Made by a program: the position numbers and the translations under genes
NCBI GenBank assembly: GCA_025526915.1
Contig: JAHLKH010000122.1
Coordinates: 19,512-83,511, forward strand
From: Entophlyctis helioformis
Taxonomy: Eukaryota; Chytridiomycota; Chytridiomycetes; Chytridiales; Chytriomycetaceae
Direction: 5' to 3'
DNA length: 64,000 nucleotides
In this document: one piece after another, positions 17,221 through 53,968 of the stretch
Layout of the letters: the number at the start of each line of letters is the position of its first letter
Position numbering within the stretch: the stretch's first letter is position 1
Notes under the pieces: model-generated
Told to the model about the DNA's origin: nothing
Seen by the model: only the letters and a program-made list of their open reading frames with translations
The model's database searches: none

Positions 17221-20200
17221 ATGAAGGCGACGGCCAAGGCGAGCATGTCTACGTCTATGAAGGCGGCGTCCATGGACACACCGCCCGCCGTGCTGCTGCT
17301 GCTGTGCCAGGCCAGCGGCGACAGAGCCGTGCGGTCGCTGCGAGCCCACCTGCGGCATCTGCGGCATCTGCAGGCTGCCACCAACAGCGACACGGCCACC
17401 AACAGCGACTGCGACACCAACAGCGACTGCGACGACCCGCCCGAGCTCGCGCGTCTGCTCGACTCCACGTTCGTCGTGGCTGCTCCCGCAGGCACTGGCG
17501 GCCGCGTGCTCGTCGCGCCGCGCTCCGACCGCGACCGCGACCTGGCCCAGGCCGACGTGCGTCTCGCTGCGTCTCGCTGCGTCTCGCTGCGTGCCCGCCC
17601 CTCGCTGACATTGCTGGCATCGCCCCATCGCCAGATTGTGCACCTGCAGATCCAGCGCATGCTCAAGACCGGATCGTCCAACATCCTCGCGCTGGGCTTC
17701 AACAAGGCATGCCGCGCTGCCTCGCATCTGTCTGCCGGCCGCCCTGTCCCTCTGCCCGTCCAGCTCACACCCATGCACGCCATCAGAGGTCCGGCCAGAC
17801 CATCGCTCCCATGTCCGGGACCTACAGCCTCGACGTCTACTTTCCAAACTCGATCGTCGACCTGCTCAAGACGCCCGCTTGGTGCCTGCTGCTCGAGAGG
17901 ATCGGCGATGCGGCCATGATGCACCTGCTGGGCTCCACAAGCCTCTTTTCGCAGCTGCCCAACGGCTGCGTCTTCCAGCTGACTGGTTCGTCTGGTCGCC
18001 CGCTCCTCTCCTTTCGCGCCGTGCACCAGCTCGCTGACTGGCCGACTGGCTGACTGGCTGACTGGCTGCTTGGATGGCATCTCTATGCCATGCAGGCACG
18101 CCTCTGGGAGAGCTAAACACGCTCAACGTCACGCTCCCAATGCCTACGCTCGTTGACCGCTGCCTGCCGCTGCTCAAGGCCAAGCGGAAACGGCGGCGCG
18201 CTTCAAAGCAGAGCAACAGCGCGTCGGCTGTTCCAATGGATGTCGACCTGCCGGCAGATGGGCCAGCTGGTGCACCGGCAGATGGGCATGCAATGGATGT
18301 CGATCAGCCTGCAGTGAATGGGCAGAACGCTCCGGGACCTGCTGCAGGCAACACGGGGAGAAAGCGACAGATGTCAGAGGATCCAATGGGCACCGAAAAC
18401 GAAGCCCGTCCAAACAAGCGTGTCTGTGCCAAGGCACGCCACCACGTCGTGAGCCGGATCAAGCCGTCCAATGTCATAATCCCGTGGTCAAGCGTCTTCT
18501 ATGGCAGTCCGTCATTAACCAACAAGCGGCGTCTGCGTGCTGGCTTTCCAAACAAGCGTACGTTTGCCTGTCAATGGCTTGTCCTGCATGCGATCTGGCC
18601 TCCAATCTGACTGGCACGCATTGCTCTCCAGACGTGCTGAGTCTCTTGGATGGGGACAACAAGGCCATCCACAAGAGCCTTCTTTGCGCCATGTTTCCAC
18701 TTGAGCTGCGACTGCAAAGCCCGCTGCTCTCCTGTTCTGGCTCTGCCGGGCCTGCAGCTTTGCCCGGAGACAAGCCATTGCGGCAGCCATCACCAGACGC
18801 GTTGTCTACAAAGGCATCATGGCGTCTCAAGGCTCTTGCTCCGTTGATCGACAAGATGATGCACAATGTCAAGACATGCAACTTTGACGCTCTACTCAAC
18901 AAATACTGTCCGATGCCCTTGAACGAGATGCTCGAGGTGCGTCTTGCTCATCATGGCTCTGCTGCAGTACAACTGTTGGCTGATCAAGACGGCATGGTAA
19001 AGGATCCAAGCAAGAACACCATGGCGCTGTGTGTGGATCACAAGCAGGTACGGCCGTGTGGCATGCGCCGATTGCCAACCAGCCATCGTCTGACTGCACC
19101 ATATCTCCATGACAGGTTGGATCGTTCATCAAGTCTGTCGTTCGCAACATTGTCCCAAAAGCGTTTTGGGGAAGCATGGACAATCGCGCCGTCATCTTTG
19201 CCTGTATGTTGGCATTGACTGTCGTCGATGCATTGATGCCTCATTGCAGTCTTTCGACTCATGCGCTTCATTCGGAAACGTCAGCCATCCAGCAGGCAGT
19301 CATGTTGCGACGGTATGAGACGCTGTCCCTCCAAAACCTTGTCAAGGGCATCAAGGCAAGTGTTCACGCAGCGAGGACTCCACGGACGCGACTCTGCTAG
19401 CACACTCCTAGCCATCTCACACCTTCTGTGCAGATCAAGGAGATGGCGTGGCTCGAGTGCAGCGCCAAACCAGCCAAACACGTGTCGACATGCGAGATGG
19501 AAAAGCGGCGCGAGATGCTGTACCAGTTTCTGTACTGGCTCTTCTCCAGCGTTGTCGTTTCGCTTGTCAAGGTGTGCGCTGCACAGACTGCGCAAGCAGT
19601 GTCTTTGTCACGACGCTGCTGGAGCTCACTGACGACTTGCTGGACAGAACAACTTTTATGCGACAGAAACAGCCATCTACAAGCACCGCGTGGTGTACTT
19701 TCGTCATGCCGTCTGGTGGCGTATCCGCAAGCCGCTCCTTGCCTTGCACATGGACAATGTCCTGAAGCCCATCAGCAACGTATGCACGCCAAGCACGGCT
19801 GCCCGATGGTGGCTGGAGGGGCTGACGGATGTGTGCACGACAGGCCGAGGTTGCATCGCTGTTGAAGACGAAGCAGGCTCTTGGATATTCGTATCTGCGA
19901 TTCCTGCCGAAAGAGTCGGGTGCTCGGCCCATTACCAACCTGGGTCGAAGGCCTACTTCACATGCAAGTACCATATGGCATGCCCGGCACGGATCTGGCT
20001 GCCGTGTGTTCCAATCCAACTCACGCCGATTGCAATGACGAGTAGGATTGGAAGGACCTGGACCTGACGCCTGAGCAGATCAGTGGCTTGGCTTGCTCGA
20101 TGCCCAAAGCATGGGGTGGGTTCAAGTCCATCAACCAGGTGCTGGCCAAAGCGCATCATGTTCTCGCATACGAAAGGGTGGGTGCGGTCGCATGGTATGC

Positions 20201-43656: not shown

Positions 43657-43669
43657 AACAGCCAGTTTC

Positions 43670-43753
43670 TGGTAGAATCGCTGTGATTGGTCGATCTTGG
43701 TGGAATCGCTGTGATTGGTCAATCCTGGTGGAATCGCTGTGATTGGTTGATCT
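43670..43753. repeat. Three tandem 28-bp repeats containing inverted CCAAT boxes
   Basis: Units 43670-43697, 43698-43725 and 43726-43753 share the core GAATCGCTGTGATTGGT and differ at two to four positions. Each contains ATTGG, the reverse of CCAAT. They mark the left side of the FEN-Fanzor block and end about 1.4 kb before its proposed start. Confidence 0.9.
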
Positions 43754-45157
43754 AGAGAGCCCTTGCAAGGTGCTGACACTGCGCGATGCGAGCACAGCAG
43801 CAACGCGCCATGCCAGATCCAGACGCTGCTGCACTTGCCGCCCAACTGCACACAAGCAACAACGAGCCAAACGACAACGACGACAGCAACGCAGGCGACA
43901 GCACGGATATGGGACAGCACTCGCTTGCTGGGCGAGTCCTTCTGGGGAGACTGCGAGGCTCACTGCTCAAGGTGGCATGCAGCAGGCCATCCAGCAGGCA
44001 TCCAGCAGAGCAGCGTGGTCGTGGCCGTCTGAGAGGCGTGCACAACAAGGGGGCGGACAGAAGGCAGGCTGCAGACAGGCAAGCAGGTGCGTTGACTCGC
44101 TGTCTGTCCAGGCATGCTCCATTGCCCATCGACGACGACGGCACAGCAGTCTGACGGCCGTGTCTGCGTGGTCTTGGCACTGACTGCGTGCATGTCTGAT
44201 GGCTCCAAACAGCAAGGGACGTTGGCAAGACGGCCGTGAACAGGGCGATCTGGTTGTTGTTCAAGAGGACAGCGAGAGCGTTGGCATCGCAGGGCCGAGC
44301 TGCCTGGTGCTTTCCGACTGCGACATGGGATGCAGCAGCAACGATGAGCAGCCACTGAGACGTGCTCAATGGATCGATCCTTGGAGTTGGCTGCAGGAAC
44401 TGCTTGCTGGACAGCTGGATTGGCATGCCGACTTGGACGCCAAACTCGGCAGTGGCAGCACACTCGACGAGCAGCACACTCGACGACACTGATCCAGACG
44501 AGATTGGTGAGGAGGACGCGAGTGCTGGCAGGCGTGTCTGGCCACATTGCACTTGGTGTGATGGCATCTTGGATGCGATCCACTGAGCAGCAACTGGAGT
44601 GGCCAGACAGACCAAGCACTCTCCATTCATTCAACAACCACAACGACGATGATGATGGCGATGGTCCTGACTATCCAAGTCTTGCATGCACTGTGTTTGT
44701 TGACAAGGACGATCCAGAGCAGAGGGGCGTTGCAGGCAGTGCGCCAACGACCAACCTGTCCATGGACCAGCTGGCCAGTCAGGCAACACCAACTGCATCG
44801 CACTGGGTCACAGGACGATTGTTGGATGCAATGGGACATTGACTGAGAAGATGCTACTCGGAGAGACGCTCGCTGCAATGCAGCTCATGACACGCAGAGT
44901 GATGCTGCACGGTGCATGTCAAGCTGCGCACTGGGTGGCATCACATCAATGACTGTGCCAGCAACACACGACCGCATCTTGAACGCCTGGCTGTTGGCTG
45001 TGCTCGCTGCTCCCTCTATGGCTGTTGGACAGTGGGCGGCAAGTGCCAGACTGCCCGCTCTCTATCCACTCGCTCTCTGTCTGTGTCGGCAATGAAAGTT
45101 CAACTCCGCCAGACGCTCCAATTCTTTTCTCGTAAACGCAGATACAGACGCAGCAGC
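43754..45157. other. Upstream region of the FEN-Fanzor gene, no confident gene
   Basis: This 1.4-kb stretch has short open frames on the plus strand (43786-44154, 44199-44492, 44369-44842). None has a recognisable domain. Their composition is similar to the downstream gene, so one or more could be a 5' exon. The 44369-44842 frame ends in an acidic stretch that looks protein-like. I could not link any of them by phase-consistent splicing. Confidence 0.35.
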
Positions 45158-48100
45158 ATGACAGTCGCCGGCTTGTTGAGGGTGCTCAAGCTAGGCAGGG
45201 CTGTATGTGTCTACAGTGCTGCCTGGACCCTGTGCCAGGTCTTGCAGGCTATGCTGCAACAGCTGCTGCCACAACAGCCGCCACTGCAACAGCCGCCGCC
45301 GCAACAGCCGCCGCCGCAACAGCAGACTGCAACAGCCACAACAGCAACAGCCGCAACAACAACAGCCGCAACCACCCACTTCAGCGGGATGCTGCACGTT
45401 GACGTGCTAAGCATCTTCTTCTCGCAGCTAGTCGCCACAGCTGCCATCAGCATGCCCGACTCCATTGACAGCTGGAAGGACATCGTCCAGCCAGCTTTTC
45501 AGCTGTTCATGGCGTCAGTCGGCGACGGCCACACCATCAAATTCCATGTGGATGGTCGCCGCAGAGACGCGGGAATCAAGATTGTGCACTACAGCCACGC
45601 TCACAATATGCTGCATGTGGCGGTCAAGGTCCTGCGGTATGCGTTCCGCCGCCAAGAATGCAAGCAGACGGGATCACTTTCAAAGTAAGTTTGCTACTCT
45701 CTACTGTGTGGCTGCCATGCTGACTATCTTCTGCTGCTTGCCATCAGGGACGAGATGTATGCCCTCAACAGGTTCTACACGTTGACGCAGACAGACAAAC
45801 AGCACATTGCTGCGGCCCTCAGTGAGCTGGCTGGCAAAAAGAAGGGATGCACAGTCTGCTGGTGTGATTATGAAGCAGACTGTTGCATCGCCCGCCATGT
45901 TCGCGAGCCAAGGTAACATTGCCTTGGATCATTCTACTGTGACTGATGGCTCACAGTCTGTATTCTGTGACAGTGCCAAGCCGATCATAGTCATTGCCAA
46001 TGACTCTGATCTGGTGGCACATTGTGCTGGGCACTGCGGTGTTGTTTTGACACACCTGCAGCATGGGCGGGTTGGTGTAGCACTGGGCCTCCAGGCGGAC
46101 TTGCCAACTGGTCTCGGGGCAGTGAGTATGCACGCAGGGGAACGGCGGGCAGACGACTGCAAGAACGGGGGAAACCAGAGCGGCCGGTGCGGCCCGACAA
46201 TGTCTGTCCGGTCACGTGGATCACGTGGATCACGTGGATCACGTGGATCACGTGGATCACGTGACCGCGACCGAGCATCCGTTACAGTTGGGCAGATTCG
46301 CTCATACAACCATGGTGGGCTTGCCACCATGGCATCTGCCTTGGGTGTGCGGGATTTTCGCGGTGCATGCCTGGCTGTGGCTGTGCTTTCTCATACAGAC
46401 TTTTTTGGCCGCAATGACCATGGTGAGTTGCCGCGCCTGTTTTGTAGTATCTGCCATCACTCACATGCCATTCTTTGTCTACATGTGCGATTCTGCTTGC
46501 ATTCCCTGCCAGGAATCGCCGCCGCGGTCAAGTTTGTCAATGCGCGGTTTGATGCCAAGGTCGAAGAGCTCAACATCAAGGCGGCTGACCTCTGCGCGAT
46601 CCTCGAGACTCCTAATGAGGCCAAGGCGTTCATGGACACCATCAAGGACGCGTACATCGAGGAGCTGGTCAAGAATGGTGATGAGAGCCTTGTCCAGGCA
46701 TTCAAGAACGCATTTGAAGTCTTTGTCAACCGGAATGATGTTGGGGCCTCTGCTGGTGCAATCACAGCGGCGATCGTCGCGAGGTATGTTTATTCTTGAA
46801 GGATGTCATGGACATGATGGCATTGACACGATTGAATGCCTTGCACAGATCTGAGCCTCAAGCAGACCACACCAACCACATGGATGTCAACACGACTCCA
46901 TCTGTTGGAATGAAGTATGAATGCATGGAATCTGTGGCGTTTCTGGCAAAACTGACACTGAGTTTCTGTTTCTGATGCTGCGATCTCATTATTGTGCAGG
47001 TGCTTGACGGATGGATGCTGCTTGAGCCATACTGCACAGCAGCAGCAGCAGCAGCAGCAGGCTGAGAACGGTGTCCAGCTTGTCCACTTGACGCGTAGCA
47101 GGGTTGAGCAGCTTGTCAGCAGCACTGTTGGCAGCAGGCGGTTGGATGCTGCCTTCATTGAGGTGAAGGGTTGCCATGTGGCACTCGACACCATCATCAG
47201 GTGCACAGTCAACCGCCTTGCGAGCAGCTACGATGCTGTCACGCGTCGCGACATCCTGGCAGCCATCTGCAAGGCAGCAAGTGCCCAGCTGCTGCAGATT
47301 GCCAGCGAGCAGTTTCTTGGAGCAGATGGCATTTTTAAGCTCCTCCCAGCAGATGAGCCAATCTATCGCGCATTGGTATGTTTGCATGGCTTGAATGCAT
47401 GCTGTTGCTCTTGCACCATGCGCATTTACTGATTTTGAATGCGGCTGACTTGATCCATTGCTTCTGGACAGAACGCAGCAATGAGAATGCAGACGCAGCT
47501 CGACAAGATTGCCAATCCGCCATGCGCATCCCACCGGCATACATCCACTCCCAGTAGGTGTTGATTGCATTGAAATGATTCAACAGCATCCACTCACAGA
47601 TCCATTTGTGTTGAATGCATAGTACTGGACACAGAGACGCAGAAAGTCGAGTACCACGGCAGGATGACCACGCGAGTTGCACCGCGATCCACTGTCGCTG
47701 CTATCCACGACAAGGCCTCAGCCTGGCTGTATTTCCTGGAGCACCCCATAGGTCCACATCCAGAAAACGCCAAACCGCCGACACTCATCAATCAGCGCCA
47801 AAAGGCCGTCGCTCTGCTGCAGTCCATCATTGAGCAAAGTGCAGTGCGTCTCGACTTCCACTGACTGCATGTGCATGGAATGATTTGGCGCGATTGCTCA
47901 CCATCCCACTCCACAGGTTGGTCCTCCTCCACCGCCGCCCAAGCCACCACGGTTGTCCAACAACATCTTCGCAGCACTGGCATGCTCCAAGACCTTTCCC
48001 ATTGGCGATCTTGCCGACACTGAGACGACGGTGAGTTTGGTGCACCATTGGCGATCGTGGCTGTGTTTGGTGCACATGAAATGGACGCCTGATGCTGCAT

Positions 48101-51100
48101 CCAACCGTCACAGGCGCCATTCCAATTCACGGCAGCCAAGCGGGCTGCGCACACAAAGGAGCATGCCAAGAAAAAAGAGAAGGCCACACTACAGGAGATC
48201 ATCAGAGAGAACAAGAAGAAGTCAGGCCTGCGTGCTCGCAAGGCTGGAACTGTTGGCAAGAAGAAGGCGTACGCGACATATGGCATGTCATGTGCCTTGA
48301 ATGTGCTTGCTGACACGTGTGTCATGCCACAGATGGGTTGCTGGCAGTCGAGTGGCAACTCGTCAGAAGCTTGCAAAGCTCGGCCGCATGATTGCGATGC
48401 CAGTCATGACACTTGCCGCGGCCACCCATCCCAAAGGACAGCCAAGACCTAAAGGCAATGCACACAGCCGCCCTGAGCAGATTGTCAAAATGGCGGTATG
48501 GGGTTTGATCGGCATGCTGCTCTGTTTGCTTGGCTTTGTGGATGCTGACTTGTGTGGTATGCAGGAGATGCAGTCATGCGATCTCGCAAACACCAAGTTT
48601 TTTGGGCCCCAAACCAAGACACCACTCGCCGAACAGACACCCAGTTCAATCAGCCACAACACCACCCTCACAGTCTACTATTTCACGGCCGGCTTGTGGC
48701 GTGCTGCCCTTGCCTTGATCGGCGCCATGGTCGCGGATCTGGTCAAGCTGGAATGCAGACGCGCCTCTGCCTCTGGAGTACTGTGTCCTGGAGGCAACCA
48801 AGGCAAGATGACGCAGTATTACTATGTCAACCCCGAGGACTTTGATGAGGACGAGAGCGCGACGCTCTTGTCAGGTGGATGCGTTCACAAGCAGGGCATC
48901 ATTGTTTGGCACATGTACGGCACCGGCCCGCACAGCAGCGACACAAAGATCCCTCGCTATGGCAGCTTGGTGACTCTCGACAGTGACACGGCTCTCAAGA
49001 TCTGCGCCTTTGATACTGCCAAGATTGCCAAGCAACCCAACATGCATGGCGACCTCGACGATCAGGACGAGCAGAACGAGCAGGACGAGCAGGATGAGCA
49101 GGATGAACACGACGAGCAGGACGAGCACGATGAGCACAAGCTGCCTGTGCAGCCTGACGACCCATGCATCCAGGACGACCATGATGTGCACAATCAGCCA
49201 ACAGCAGCCAGCAGCACCGGCGCTTCATCTTCAGCCGTCCAACCGCCACCACCACCACCAGCAGCAGCAGTTCCATCAGCAAATGAGCTGCTTACGGCCC
49301 TCACCAGCAGTATATCAGGTGGAGGCGGTGCTGTGGACATGCTGCTGCGCCATCTTGGCTATGTCCTGGCGGACAGCATGATGGTGCAGCCGCAAGCACC
49401 AAGCATGTCATCCACTCCTGGATCGTAACAGTCATGCAAATGACGATCCATCGCACCTGGACGCGGAGGGTGCTGCAAACCAACGCAGCCAAGCTGCAGG
49501 ATGACACGGTACGGATGGACATGATGCAGACGTGCACAATGCTGATGGACATGTCACTGATTGATGCAATGCAGCAGGCGGCCACGGCACACAGCGACAC
49601 GTTCCAGAAAGACGCGCGGCAAGCAGCCATGATGGACATGGCACAGATGGACACGATGCGAGCAGCCATGATGGATGCCGACATGATGGACGCGACGCAG
49701 CAGACGGTGACAATCCAGGCCGACGCGATCCTGTCAGCCGTGGTGCAGGCAGATGCAGAGCTGTCGGCCTTGATGCACACAAGTGCGCAGACGGCAGACG
49801 CTGTGCACGCGGGCACTATGGAGGCTGTCTTGCCCTACAGGCTTGATGGCAGCCTTTGCGCGAATGCAAGGCATGACATTTACAGCAATCTGGCCAGGGA
49901 TGTGTGTGGCATGCTTGCGCGGCACTACATCTCTAGCCAGTCTGAGCTGGCCGTCACTGCAGCCCTCAAGCTGATGCCCAGTGCATCCATTGAGGACGTG
50001 AGAGTGTGGATTGCGGCACTTTTCAAGACCGCCAAGGCTGCCAAGGCCGCCAAGGCTGCTGCTGCCAAGGCTGCCAAGGACGCTACACCACCGGCGATTG
50101 AGGACGCCACACCGCTGGCCACTTTGGACACTGCTCCTCCCACCTCAAGTCTCAAGCGGGGCCGGTCCACCTCTTCGTCAGCCAACAAGGGCGGCAGGCC
50201 CAAGAAGCGACGGGGCAGGAAGGCAGCCACCACCAAGGACGCGGCATCCAGCTCTTCCTCGGCCACTGAGGACAGCGGTATTGATACAGTCCCGCAAGAG
50301 CTGCACGAGCTCAAGACGCTTGTGCCTGATGTGTCTCGGTCAGAGATCGTGATCTTTTACGAGCTGTCCAAGCTTGCTGGCACAACAAACAAGCTGTGCC
50401 CGCAAGCAGCCAGCCGCGATCCCTTCATCCTCATCACCGAGACAACGCTCTTTTGGGCGGTGATGGGGAGTAGTGATGATCGCATCCGTGGCGAGCAAAG
50501 TGCTGCTTTGGCATACTTGCGACTGCAGCTCCTTGCTGTACTCAGTAGGTCGCACTTGTTTATGCCATGTCTACATGATATGATGCTAACACTCCACTTT
50601 TATCCAAGACTACCAAAAAGCCAGCTTGGGCCTCGCATCATCCAACAGGACGATCAAGAAGGCGTTCAGCAATAGCAAGGAGCTCTGTATCCTCAACATA
50701 CTCCTTCCCGGCCTCCGCCCCAAGAAAGGCCGCTATCAGACGCCAGACGAGGCCGACAAGGAGGTGTTTGAGCAGGTCCAAGCAAATGACGCAGTCATTG
50801 CTGATGCGATGCAACTGGCTGAGCACGAGGGTCTGGTTGGCAAGGAGCGCCAGGAGTTTATAGACGCCGTGATCGATGGTCTTCCTCCTGCAATTCCAAG
50901 CAAACCGACCGCGGTGGGCAGCTTCCGGACGGACGGATACAGCATCTTTCAGCTGGCGCTGACTTATCGCACAGACCGTCCAGAGTCGCCACGCAGTATG
51001 TGGCGTGCTTGAATGCTTTGGTGCACACATTGGTTCTGACTGCCGCCTTGATCTGCATGCTCCAACATGGCATCTTTAGGCGAGCAGCCCAGCCTTGCTG

Positions 51101-52701
51101 ATGGCATGCCTGATGATGATGATTGACGATGACGATGATGGAGGCATGATGGGCATGATGGGCATGATCAATTGGATGGCGAATGTGAGTTGCTGTGCCA
51201 ATCCAGACGCACACTTGTTGTCCACACCGACTGACATGCCATCCACAGCTGCCGATCCTGCCGACCTGTCAGCCGCCAAGCCATACACGCCCAATCCTGT
51301 AAGCCACTTGCATGCCAACCTCGCACTTTGGTGCACATGCATTGCACATTCCTCACTCATGTCATGGCATGACAGGGCAAGCTCAGCTTCTACGCCTCGC
51401 AGCGACTGCGCGACATCATCAAAGCCAACAACCTGTTCACCAACAAGGGCTACCGGTTTGTGCGTATTGTCGGCATTGATTGGGGCGAGCGGTACATGTA
51501 TGGCGCGTCCAGCATGCTGGTCGATCTGGCAACCTTCACCTATACCCTCGAGTCCAACTACGTGCTCTCCTCTGGCATGGCACAAGCCGAGCACAGCCTT
51601 CAGCGGTGGTATGCATGCAATGACTCTGCCACGCGCACTCTTGACCAGATCAACTCACAGTGCCTGCCTCCTGTGCCAGGCTCAACAATCGATATGCTAA
51701 GGCAACCGACGTCCACGAGGTTATTGCATTCAAGACAGCAAAGCATGCCGATCCAAACGTCAAGCCTGGCGAGAGAGCCTTTTGGGATCTGCGCTGCCAT
51801 GCGTACTGCACGCCATTCCTGAATGCACGGGTACGTTTTCCCTGTTTCTGGGATGCCCATTGCCATGACCGCCATGCTACTTGATCGCCTGCTGATTGCA
51901 CTGGATGGCATGGCATGACATGGCATTCCACAGAAGGTCCAAGGCCAAGCGGTTCACCATGCGTAGCAACAGCATGTCTGATCGCGGAAACGCTCTTGAG
52001 GGCATCATGAAGCTGGCAGGCTCGACCACTGGCAAGCGCGCATCAGCTGCATCTCAAGGCCGCTGTGACAAGCCAACAGAGAAAGGACATTCCCGTTGTG
52101 TGGGCATTTGGCATTGACTTTACAGGCCAAGGTGGCCGGCACGCTTGTGTTTGAGAAGTTTCTCATCAGGCATCTGCGGTCGTCTGGATATGCCTATGTG
52201 CGTCTGATGCCATGCTATCCATCCATCCATCCATCTGTGCACCAACTGACACACACACACACACACACACAGATCTACCGCTGCAACGAGAACCTGACCA
52301 GCCAGATGTGCCCGCAGTGCAAGCAGCGGATCCCATACGAGAACCGCACCAACCTGCGACGCTACGAGTGCATACCATGCACGACCGTCTACCACCGAGA
52401 CGTGCTTGGAGCCACCAACATCGGGATGGTCGCACTGTGGCATCTGCTCTATGGACAACGGCCGCTCTACTTGACGCACACGCCACCTGACAGCAATCCA
52501 GCCACGCAAGTACCTTGCAGACATCAGGCAACTCATCATGACATCCAGTGGCGTGCACAACATCACATCATGCTGCTCGCGACACCGCCTGATCAGCCTG
52601 TCGTCCAGCAGCCTCCGTCACCCGATCTGCTTCCCTTCAAGTCGCATGTGGCCTCATGGGATCAGATCATGCTGCCATGTCTGCCAACAACAACACTTTG
52701 A
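45158..52701 (+). CDS. FEN1/EXO1-like nuclease fused to a Fanzor (TnpB-like) RuvC nuclease
   Basis: Best model, about 1,864 aa: exons 45158-45684, 45748-45912, 45974-46121, 46296-46422, 46513-46783, 46849-46914, 47000-47375, 47472-47553, 47623-47843, 47917-48030, 48114-48268, 48333-48495, 48565-49309, 49432-50544, 50609-50995, 51249-51298, 51376-51608, 51680-51830, 52126-52197, 52273-52701. N-part: MTVAGLLRVLK, LHVDVLSIFF (D), IKFHVDGRR (D), CDYEADCCIARH (E, D), IIVIANDSDLVAHC (D, D), LAVAVLSHTDFF (D), then GIAAAVKFVNARF; this is the XPG-N / XPG-I / helix-turn-helix order with every metal-binding acid kept. Middle: DEQ-rich acidic tract and GGRPKKRRGRK (AT-hook-like NLS). C-part: VRIVGIDWGERYMYG (RuvC-I), CNENLTSQMCPQCKQR, RYECIPC zinc ribbon, and HRDVLGATNIG (RuvC-III). 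Joining by intron 49310-49431 is inferred. The frame around 51831-52126 is unresolved. Confidence 0.65.
46211..46264. repeat. Six CACGTG E-boxes at 9-bp spacing inside an intron
   Basis: A nine-base unit (ATCACGTGG) is tandemly repeated so that CACGTG recurs six times with exact 9-bp period, within intron 46122-46295 of the FEN-Fanzor gene. The motif is palindromic. The array could be a bHLH binding cluster or just a microsatellite. Confidence 0.9.
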
Positions 52702-52754
52702 ATCGGGGACCTCCCGATCGACCTAACGGGTCACTTCAATAGAAGGTGAGACCC
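52702..52754 (+). ncRNA. Two hairpins right after the Fanzor stop, candidate omega-RNA / right end
   Basis: Hairpin 1 (52702-52718) has a 6-bp stem, ATCGGG/CCCGAT, with loop GACCT, starting at the base after TGA. Hairpin 2 (52728-52754) pairs GGGTC with GACCC, AC with GT and TTC with GAA around an AATA loop with small bulges. TnpB and characterised Fanzors take their guide RNA from the 3' end of the ORF and its flank, so the position fits. There is no direct evidence of transcription. Confidence 0.4.
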
Positions 52755-52920
52755 TTGTTGGATGTGCCTCGCCCGCCTGTCGTCGCATGCTCGTTGCTGA
52801 CTCGAACCTTCATCGTGTGATGTGCTTGCTTGCATCCGTCGCCTCTTGGGTCGAATTTAACTCCAAAACGCTTGGTAATTGTATGAATATCGGGCCCACA
52901 CGACGTCCAAAAGCCGTCGA

Positions 52921-53968
52921 ATGGACCCCAACGTGCTGATTCTCAGCGGCATCTTCCCCGACGCAGACGACTCGCTCATCGAGTCGGTGCTGGACGCCCA
53001 CGACGGCGACCTCTACCAGGTGCGTGGCTTGCCGTGCCAACGTGCGTCTTACAGGCGCCCCTCCGTCCTTCCTTTAACATCCGCGACAGTCCCAGGCGTA
53101 TCTGGCCAGGCACTTTGAAGCCAACGAGACGGCCGCCGGCGCACTACGCCCACGGGAGCTGTCGTTCACTGCTGCGACGATGGCGCGTCTGCGCAGCTGA
53201 ACGCCCTGTCTGCCCAATACCCGTCCATGGACGCCTCGGTGCTGCAGTCGGTTCTGGACGCGCATGACGGCAACATGGACGACACCCACGCGTATCTGGC
53301 CTCCAAGGGCCATGTCATGCACTTTCGCAAATGGTCCGAGGAGACCAAGGGGCTGTCGAGGGGTCTGCCGAGGGGTCGGCTGGCCTGCGAGCGACGGCAG
53401 ACGATGACGCCAGAGGATCTCAACAACCCCTTCAGTGACAGAGCAGCCATCACGCAGCAGATCGTGCGCATCCGTCGCACCTCCTCCGTATGCTGCTGCT
53501 GTCAGCCCCTTGCATGCCACAGAAGCTGCGACTTTTGCGAGCACAGCCAGCATCGCCTCCCGTCCACCTGCATATTCTGCTGCTGCGTCACGCTCGTCCA
53601 TGCACTCTCGGCCTTCCATCCACTCTTTGTCAGGCTCGGCCAGACATAGTGCTGCATCGTCTGTTCCACGCCGCTGCCACCGCGACGATCACAGGCATCC
53701 GATCTTTCCCTTCAGCCCTCCAGTGCCGACGTGCGGGCTTTGGACGCAAGTGCGTGAGCTCATCGGCTGCTGCCTTGGCACTCAACACGCCTCAAGACGC
53801 AGACAGCAGCGATCCGTGGGCTTTGCGGCCCTCGCAGGCCTCGCCATCACAAACTGGCCAGTGCCGCCGCAGCACTATCCGCTGCAGACAATGCAGACTG
53901 CCCCGCGACAACAGCAAAGTGCACACGATCCGCCTCCGATCTCTGGCTGGGATAACGGCGGCTGGTAG
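52921..53968 (+). CDS. Tandem CUE-domain protein with broken reading frame
   Basis: Exon 1 (52921-53019) starts MDPNVLILSGIFPDADDSLIESV and contains a CUE-like ubiquitin-binding helix set. After a 70-bp intron the frame continues QAYLARHFEANETAAG. A second CUE domain follows (LNALSAQYPSMDASVLQSVL, then DAHDGNMDDTHAYLASKG). The Ser/Pro-rich tail contains two PPxY-type strings (APPPYAAA, RPPAYSAAA), possible WW-domain ligands, and ends ISGWDNGGW. Reading all of this needs single-base shifts near 53197, 53432, 53690 and once more before the end. No introns explain them. Either the assembly has indels here or the gene is decaying. Function is otherwise unknown; CUE proteins act in ubiquitin-dependent trafficking or ERAD. 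Confidence 0.5.

Follow-up and report, generated by a model that had tools for sequence, protein, structure and literature searches.

Does the chytrid fungus Entophlyctis helioformis carry a FEN-type nuclease and a Fanzor-type RNA-guided nuclease in one and the same gene, and which function could such a combination serve? The question is raised by a 64,000-nucleotide stretch of its genome, here called the window (positions 19,512 to 83,511 of contig JAHLKH010000122.1, C122:19512-83511), for which an earlier note had proposed, at window positions 45158-52701, the fusion of a FEN/EXO1-type nuclease with a Fanzor. Surveying the whole genome (29,569,594 bases, 482 contigs), we found both in one spliced gene model, and this model recurs in a large number of diverged mobile-element copies. 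Both halves are indeed present within 45158-52701, but the whole element is larger and extends on the forward strand from about 43669 to 52896 (~9.2 kb, with the 3′ border taken from five aligned copies ending at 52893-52897). It belongs to a family of 7-9 kb transposons with imperfect terminal inverted repeats (TIRs) and, in the better copies, 8-bp target-site duplications (TSDs). We consider it moderately probable that the element encodes a FEN-Fanzor fusion in which a guided cut and tethered processing of 5′ ends would lead to copying of the element.

A spliced gene model that recurs across element copies

A protein-to-genome aligner written for this study placed a 1,833-residue composite of copy L052 on seven copies, namely the window copy, L048, L049, L050, L051, L052 and L095, the first three of which are close relatives. 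In L052 itself, a spliced model of 12 exons gave one open frame of 815 residues that starts ahead of the FEN domain, continues over a linker and a Cys/His motif and reaches into a middle region; a second open frame of 1,034 residues continued down to the stop. About 200 bases between these frames are off-frame in L052; the same stretch is in frame in L048 and L049. The run from FEN to Fanzor was recovered by spliced alignment in all seven copies. With a tolerance of 3 residues, nine of the 18 intron positions of L052 were present in every copy, one of these nine with a differing phase, and 15 were shared by six or more copies. From splicing and phase we infer a single polypeptide of about 1,800 residues.

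The association of the two domains was then followed through the genome. The last FEN exon, used as query with all 146 candidates scored, returned 139 matches representing 136 distinct loci. The 3′ marks of the Fanzor half comprised 150 scored of 205 zinc-ribbon candidates, all 91 exact right ends and 100 of 141 exact 3′ blocks. Among the marks listed, a Fanzor mark followed 86 of the 136 FEN loci on their own strand at a downstream distance of 4-8 kb. The controls gave one upstream on the same strand and, for the opposite strand, 0 and 0, which excludes chance pairing. Conversely, a FEN exon was found upstream at the right distance for 59/150 zinc-ribbon matches and 49/91 right ends among the matches listed. 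An earlier count with a different query had given 44 paired loci out of 84 (controls 0 and 2; one match per locus, among the matches listed). In addition, among left ends accompanied by a zinc ribbon or a right end, 12 were without a listed FEN match; seven of them were inspected and six contained a full FEN domain. FEN-Fanzor pairing is thus common in this family, and unpaired and deleted copies also exist.

Identity of the two nuclease domains

The order of XPG motifs claimed for the N-terminal part was found again: HVDVL, HVDGR, YEAD, NDSD, HTDFF and GIAAA follow one another in the window exons within 45386-46783. At the positions which we take to be those of the seven metal-binding acids of FEN1, the FEN domains of the elements align as D, D, E, D, D, D and D, one catalytic Glu of the FEN1 set presumably being replaced by Asp. 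The seven acids are kept in 35, 35, 35, 37, 37, 37 and 35 of 37 aligned FEN rows, whose lowest pairwise identity is 31% (36 places, as L023 and L049 coincide; L021, L067 and L092 had been left out beforehand for a stop or a short model). With the Pfam family XPG_I_2 (PF12813), 8/9 family members matched at E up to 1, the best at 1.7e-4 and the window exons at 0.0083, and among the matches listed none of the nine members lay above the curated cut-off of XPG_I_2. Genome searches with XPG_N and XPG_I matched on three other contigs only, not on the element; we read these three as host XPG, EXO1 and FEN1. Alignment of the 37-row FEN profile with these host exons by hhalign reached a score of 31.1 (E 4.7e-4), compared with a best score of 19.4 and a probability of 1.3% in column shuffles (n=100), and was in register at EAE/EAD, DSD, DY and GIG. 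Motif order and conserved acids are the basis on which we assign the domain to the FEN type.

For the C-terminal part, the RuvC motifs and the zinc ribbon of the proposed Fanzor/TnpB protein were found in the window, and the family match was obtained through copy L052. The zinc ribbon of TnpB and Fanzor proteins (PF07282) matched L052 at E 8.8e-11, above the cut-off, and NCBIfam guided_TnpB at E 1.4e-7, below the cut-off.

The motif given for Fanzors by Bao and Jurka, D-x(125,275)-[TS][TS]-x-x-C4 zinc finger-x(5,50)-RD (PMC3627910), occurs in all seven modelled copies, with a gap of 187-188 after the D, followed by TSQMC, a C4 ribbon and RD. An alternative RuvC-II Glu of Fanzors is described six residues ahead of the zinc finger (PMC10711439), and six residues lead from E to the first C in 7/7 copies. 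The RuvC-I motif DPG is given as near exclusive to Fanzors (PMC10711439); all seven copies have DWG instead. As DPG is near exclusive and not absolute, we use the label Fanzor-type and divergent rather than typical Fanzor. By its motifs, the C-terminal half is a divergent Fanzor-type protein and a predicted RNA-guided nuclease. Sequence searches of the PDB returned nothing relevant for the FEN domain (best E 0.16, unrelated) and, for the Fanzor half, weak zinc-ribbon matches only (E 0.3 or worse) plus unrelated chains. The middle region gave no convincing family match in profile scans.

Selection and apparent exchange of the 3′ module

Ratios of nonsynonymous to synonymous substitution rates (dN/dS) were calculated by the Nei-Gojobori method for nine pairs of copies; for the FEN domain, dS could be estimated in seven pairs and was saturated in two. 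In the seven estimable pairs the FEN domain showed dN/dS values of 0.21-0.39, compared with 0.36-0.59 for the middle region, 0.19-0.78 for residues 960-1330 and 0.50-0.71 for the C-terminal part of the Fanzor half. FEN was the region of lowest dN/dS in 5/7 of these pairs, residues 960-1330 being lower in L052-L095 and L052-L050. Judged by its substitution pattern, the FEN domain has been constrained by purifying selection while the copies multiplied. Between subfamilies (L048-L052, L095, window), dS of the Fanzor part was 0.26-0.48 and that of the FEN domain ranged from 0.76 to saturated. Given this low Fanzor-part dS against a high FEN dS, the 3′ module has apparently been swapped or converted among elements with old and diverged 5′ parts.

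A conserved non-coding 3′ end

Downstream of the gene, a non-coding stretch is conserved up to the right end of the element (52695-52896 in the window copy). A 26-base core of it has 141 exact copies in the genome, against 0 for the reversed control. Tails with a right end came from 12 of 15 sources (not from L003, L005 and L006), and 11 were aligned; L050 is the same place as L001. In the five pairs tested, columns 1-43 differed at one site and columns 94-145 at 1-3 sites, while 16-47% of the sites differed in the intervening stretches. At the 3′ end no Rfam family was recognised, the top entry being isrG, on low-complexity DNA and far under its gathering score. The conserved stretch is a candidate scaffold of a guide (omega) RNA.

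Proposed function and alternative explanations

The proposed fusion could act as follows. The non-coding 3′ stretch would supply the guide-RNA scaffold, with the sequence beyond the right end as guide; the Fanzor half would cut the matching empty site on the sister or homologous chromosome; and the tethered FEN domain would trim or resect 5′ ends or flaps, so that repair of the break might be steered toward copying of the element. TnpBs have been described to cut empty sites under guidance so that repair copies the element, which helps elements to persist, and Fanzors are proposed to do likewise; SpuFz1, a Fanzor from another chytrid, leaves 5′ overhangs (PMC10432273). Overhangs of this type are a plausible substrate of a FEN-type nuclease. 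To reach new sites, the element would depend on a transposase supplied in trans, because none was recognised in the element.

It is possible, though we hold this more tentatively, that the protein acts in nature as a ‘cut and resect’ machine in a single chain, coupling guided cleavage to a 5′ flap or exonuclease activity and thereby directing repair to homologous copying. If this is true, it would be a natural counterpart of engineered fusions of guided nucleases with exonucleases. With the fusion under purifying selection, the question how breaks get steered to copying would become testable with one protein, and the fusion could serve as a natural scaffold for editing genomes with a preference for homology-directed repair.

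A number of observations weigh against the proposed fusion and its function. Regarding the pairing, 50/136 FEN loci had no Fanzor mark among the marks listed (for six of them a contig start is no more than 5.5 kb away), and C25, the remaining one of the seven inspected elements, gave a weak partial FEN match only. Regarding the FEN domain, the hhalign probability against the host exons was only 32.5%, and structure models from a single sequence and from 8 rows reached predicted local distance difference test (pLDDT) values of 38 and 41, the alignment depth being too low. At the 3′ end, folding of the window sequence was no better than that of shuffles (z-score -0.41) and 0/46 base pairs covaried in the aligned 3′ ends; since neither folding nor covariation gives support, a transposase-binding role of this stretch is equally open. 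The ends left by three Fanzors other than SpuFz1 are a mixture of sticky and blunt, blunt, or 3′ overhanging (PMC10432273). Regarding the gene, at least two apparent frame steps occur in each of the seven modelled copies, so that no intact copy is shown; L052 and L095 have two steps each, and L095 also has two in-frame stops, one resembling a missed intron and the other lying between its two steps in low-complexity sequence. The linker boundaries of L050 and L051 were set otherwise by the aligner (32 and 44 nucleotides), and the agreement of linker introns described below comes from one subfamily. Finally, three public gene models (P0001-P0003) hold FEN parts only.

The same fusion might instead use its FEN domain for transposition, cutting or trimming ends or flaps left by a transposase provided in trans, with the Fanzor half merely tethered. 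This is rather unlikely in our view. The left end GGCCCGGTTCTCATACCATTACC and the right end GGTAATTGTATGAATATCGGGCC had 65 and 91 exact pattern matches genome-wide, respectively, with 0 for each reversed control. TSDs were judged by eye in 12 elements with both flanks (ten others plus L049 and L052): C102 and C138 showed perfect 8-bp duplications, C18 8 bp with a one-base offset, C219 an 11-bp match, C67 and C139 seven of 8 positions and C22 six of 8; L052 was unclear, and none was seen in C10, C60, C141 and L049. TIRs and 8-bp TSDs indicate a transposase-like process, and the strong constraint on the FEN domain would also agree with a role in transposition. AcademX transposons reportedly combine an XPG nuclease with a DDE transposase. 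The nuclease encoded by AcademX has been tied by its author to TSD length (PMC10045372).

On the other hand, no transposase was recognised in the protein parts scanned, which do not include the first 1.5 kb of the window copy. Of 23 left ends lacking FEN, zinc ribbon and right end among the matches listed, two were inspected and revealed no partner; one is an internally deleted copy and the other a short end fragment. KDZ transposases are a class with TSDs of about 8 bp. Matches to KDZ-type transposases were found on three contigs (C334, C271 and C396) with no link to the element shown, and the 9 kb around the match on C334 contained no matching TIR. A search of the genome for hAT transposases gave no match; control genomes were likewise silent and absence is not demonstrated. 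As a side observation, apparent internally deleted derivatives, in which a left end lies close to RuvC or the 3′ part, were seen at L097 (C89:26620-29100), on C35 at ~165 kb and on C109 at ~12 kb.

FEN and Fanzor could also be two adjacent genes of one element and be translated separately, which we regard as improbable. The FEN-only public models and the deviating linker boundaries of L050 and L051 would fit such an arrangement. The automated models P0001 and P0003 are fragments, however: P0001 stops at the linker exon and P0003 runs into intron 3 and is therefore visibly incomplete. The linker itself also speaks against two genes. In 14 FEN loci of the window subfamily (L018-L031, of which L018, L019 and L023 are again the window copy, L048 and L049), both linker-flanking introns keep place and phase in 12/14 and each singly in 13/14, and the linker stretch (residues 310-360) is without a stop in 14/14. 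The linker exon measures 66 nucleotides in the window copy, L048 and L049, 36 in L052 and 33 in L095, and the frame is kept in all five; a length divisible by three is not claimed for every copy. A split into two genes at the stop 49426-49428 of the window copy was first suspected and was dropped as well, since relatives read on: L048, L049, L051 and L052 continue through this point near 49.4 kb, L050 being also broken there.

About equally improbable is a FEN domain which processes the guide RNA or the flap of an R-loop and not DNA ends; members of the FEN superfamily can act on RNA-containing substrates. The domesticated defence or repair enzyme that the earlier note had considered, for which nothing but the domain content speaks, can be dismissed as most improbable because of the copy number (136 FEN loci and 91 right ends, with TSDs and decayed copies) of what is a multi-copy transposon broken in the window. 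The transposon-encoded fusion linking guided cutting to 5′-end processing remains the explanation which we prefer.

Organisation of the window copy

All features of the window copy lie on the forward strand. Its 5′ part matches 39 other places, starting at 43669-43724 (best 40 of 153 candidates scored), and carries near the left end subterminal 28-bp tandem repeats (43670-43753) which also occur in L049 and L052. Between left end and FEN (43669-45157) the window subfamily is ~1.2 kb longer than L052, and this stretch is 91-97% identical in the 39 other places. The spliced gene (45158-52701, from the spliced alignment of the L052 composite) encodes, in this order, the FEN-type nuclease, the linker, the middle region and the Fanzor half. 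Its ATG at 45158 is that of public model P0003, which the N-terminus resembles, and its stop lies at 52699-52701.

The FEN domain is encoded by an exon with HVDVL and HVDGR (45386-45684), an exon with YEAD (45748-45912), the exon with NDSD and HTDFF (45974-46422) and an exon with the GIxxA turn and subsequent helices (46513-46783). The third of these is a single exon in L049 and is split in the window copy by an insertion (46072-46287) which resembles a solo long terminal repeat (LTR); its ends are TG...CA, and GTTGG flanks it on either side. An ordinary intron at 46.1 kb was dropped as an explanation, since L049 is without that insertion. Relatives of the insertion form many pairs ~1.6-1.7 kb apart (best 40 of 146 candidate places scored), which suggests a family of very small LTR elements.

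The linker exon of 66 nucleotides (46849-46914) forms the in-frame joint to the middle region (47000-50548), which comprises several exons with the Cys/His motif and acidic and Lys-rich stretches and contains the frame break ending in the stop (49397-49428). The Fanzor half (50609-52488) includes a TDG segment, RuvC-I as IDWGE (51472-51489), RuvC-II as NENLTS, the zinc ribbon and RuvC-III as YHRD. This copy is the most broken one, with 12 frame steps placed, at least three of which lie at corresponding places in L048 and L049. The candidate guide-RNA scaffold ends in the right TIR (52874-52896).

The left TIR of L049 and L052 is missing from the window copy, and its right flank (52897-52941) is identical to C60 from 101280 over the 45 bases compared; together these point to a duplication or an ectopic recombination behind one of the two copies. 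A gene with what we take to be two CUE-like repeats apparently follows the element at ~52.9-53.3 kb.

Comparison with known systems

In protein searches, where scoring was confined to the 8,000 candidates with the most words in common with the query, neither the 815-residue N-terminal half nor a 1,796-residue composite found a match, and a profile of nine FEN sequences found three E. helioformis proteins only. Viral contigs yielded no relative; one search was without a pattern match and none of the 14 pattern matches of another was confirmed. The earlier note knew of no described protein with this pairing, and we likewise found no FEN-Fanzor fusion among the open-licence papers listed, judged by title and the start of the abstract. 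In a word search, PMC11423790 showed no mention of fused or fusion, flap, helicase, transposase or chytrid. With FEN1, EXO1, XPG and the XPG_I_2 (PF12813) proteins, the FEN domain of the element shares motif order, the seven acids and the GI turn; it differs in being too diverged for the Pfam cut-off and in its position in a transposon protein.

A close setting is that of SPu-1/SpuFz1, the Fanzor1 of Spizellomyces punctatus, which is also a chytrid Fanzor with RuvC and zinc finger in a TIR element in which a transposase was not found (PMC10432273, PMC3627910). SPu-1 is described as a 2.1 kb element with one open reading frame of 633 residues and putative TA TSDs (PMC3627910), whereas the element reported here has ~1,800 residues, ~18 introns, a FEN domain, 8-bp TSDs and DWG in RuvC-I. 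The internally deleted derivatives in E. helioformis are somewhat similar to the ‘ghost’ loci of SpuFz1 (PMC10432273). AcademX is likewise a transposon encoding a nuclease; its TSDs measure 3-4 bp and no Fanzor is mentioned in the available part of the source (PMC10045372), in contrast to the 8-bp TSD of the best copies here. Copies of MCi-2 of Mucor likewise share the 3′ Fanzor part and differ in their 5′ parts, but the available description mentions no FEN domain and gives no recognisable TIRs and TSDs of 11-12 bp (PMC3627910).

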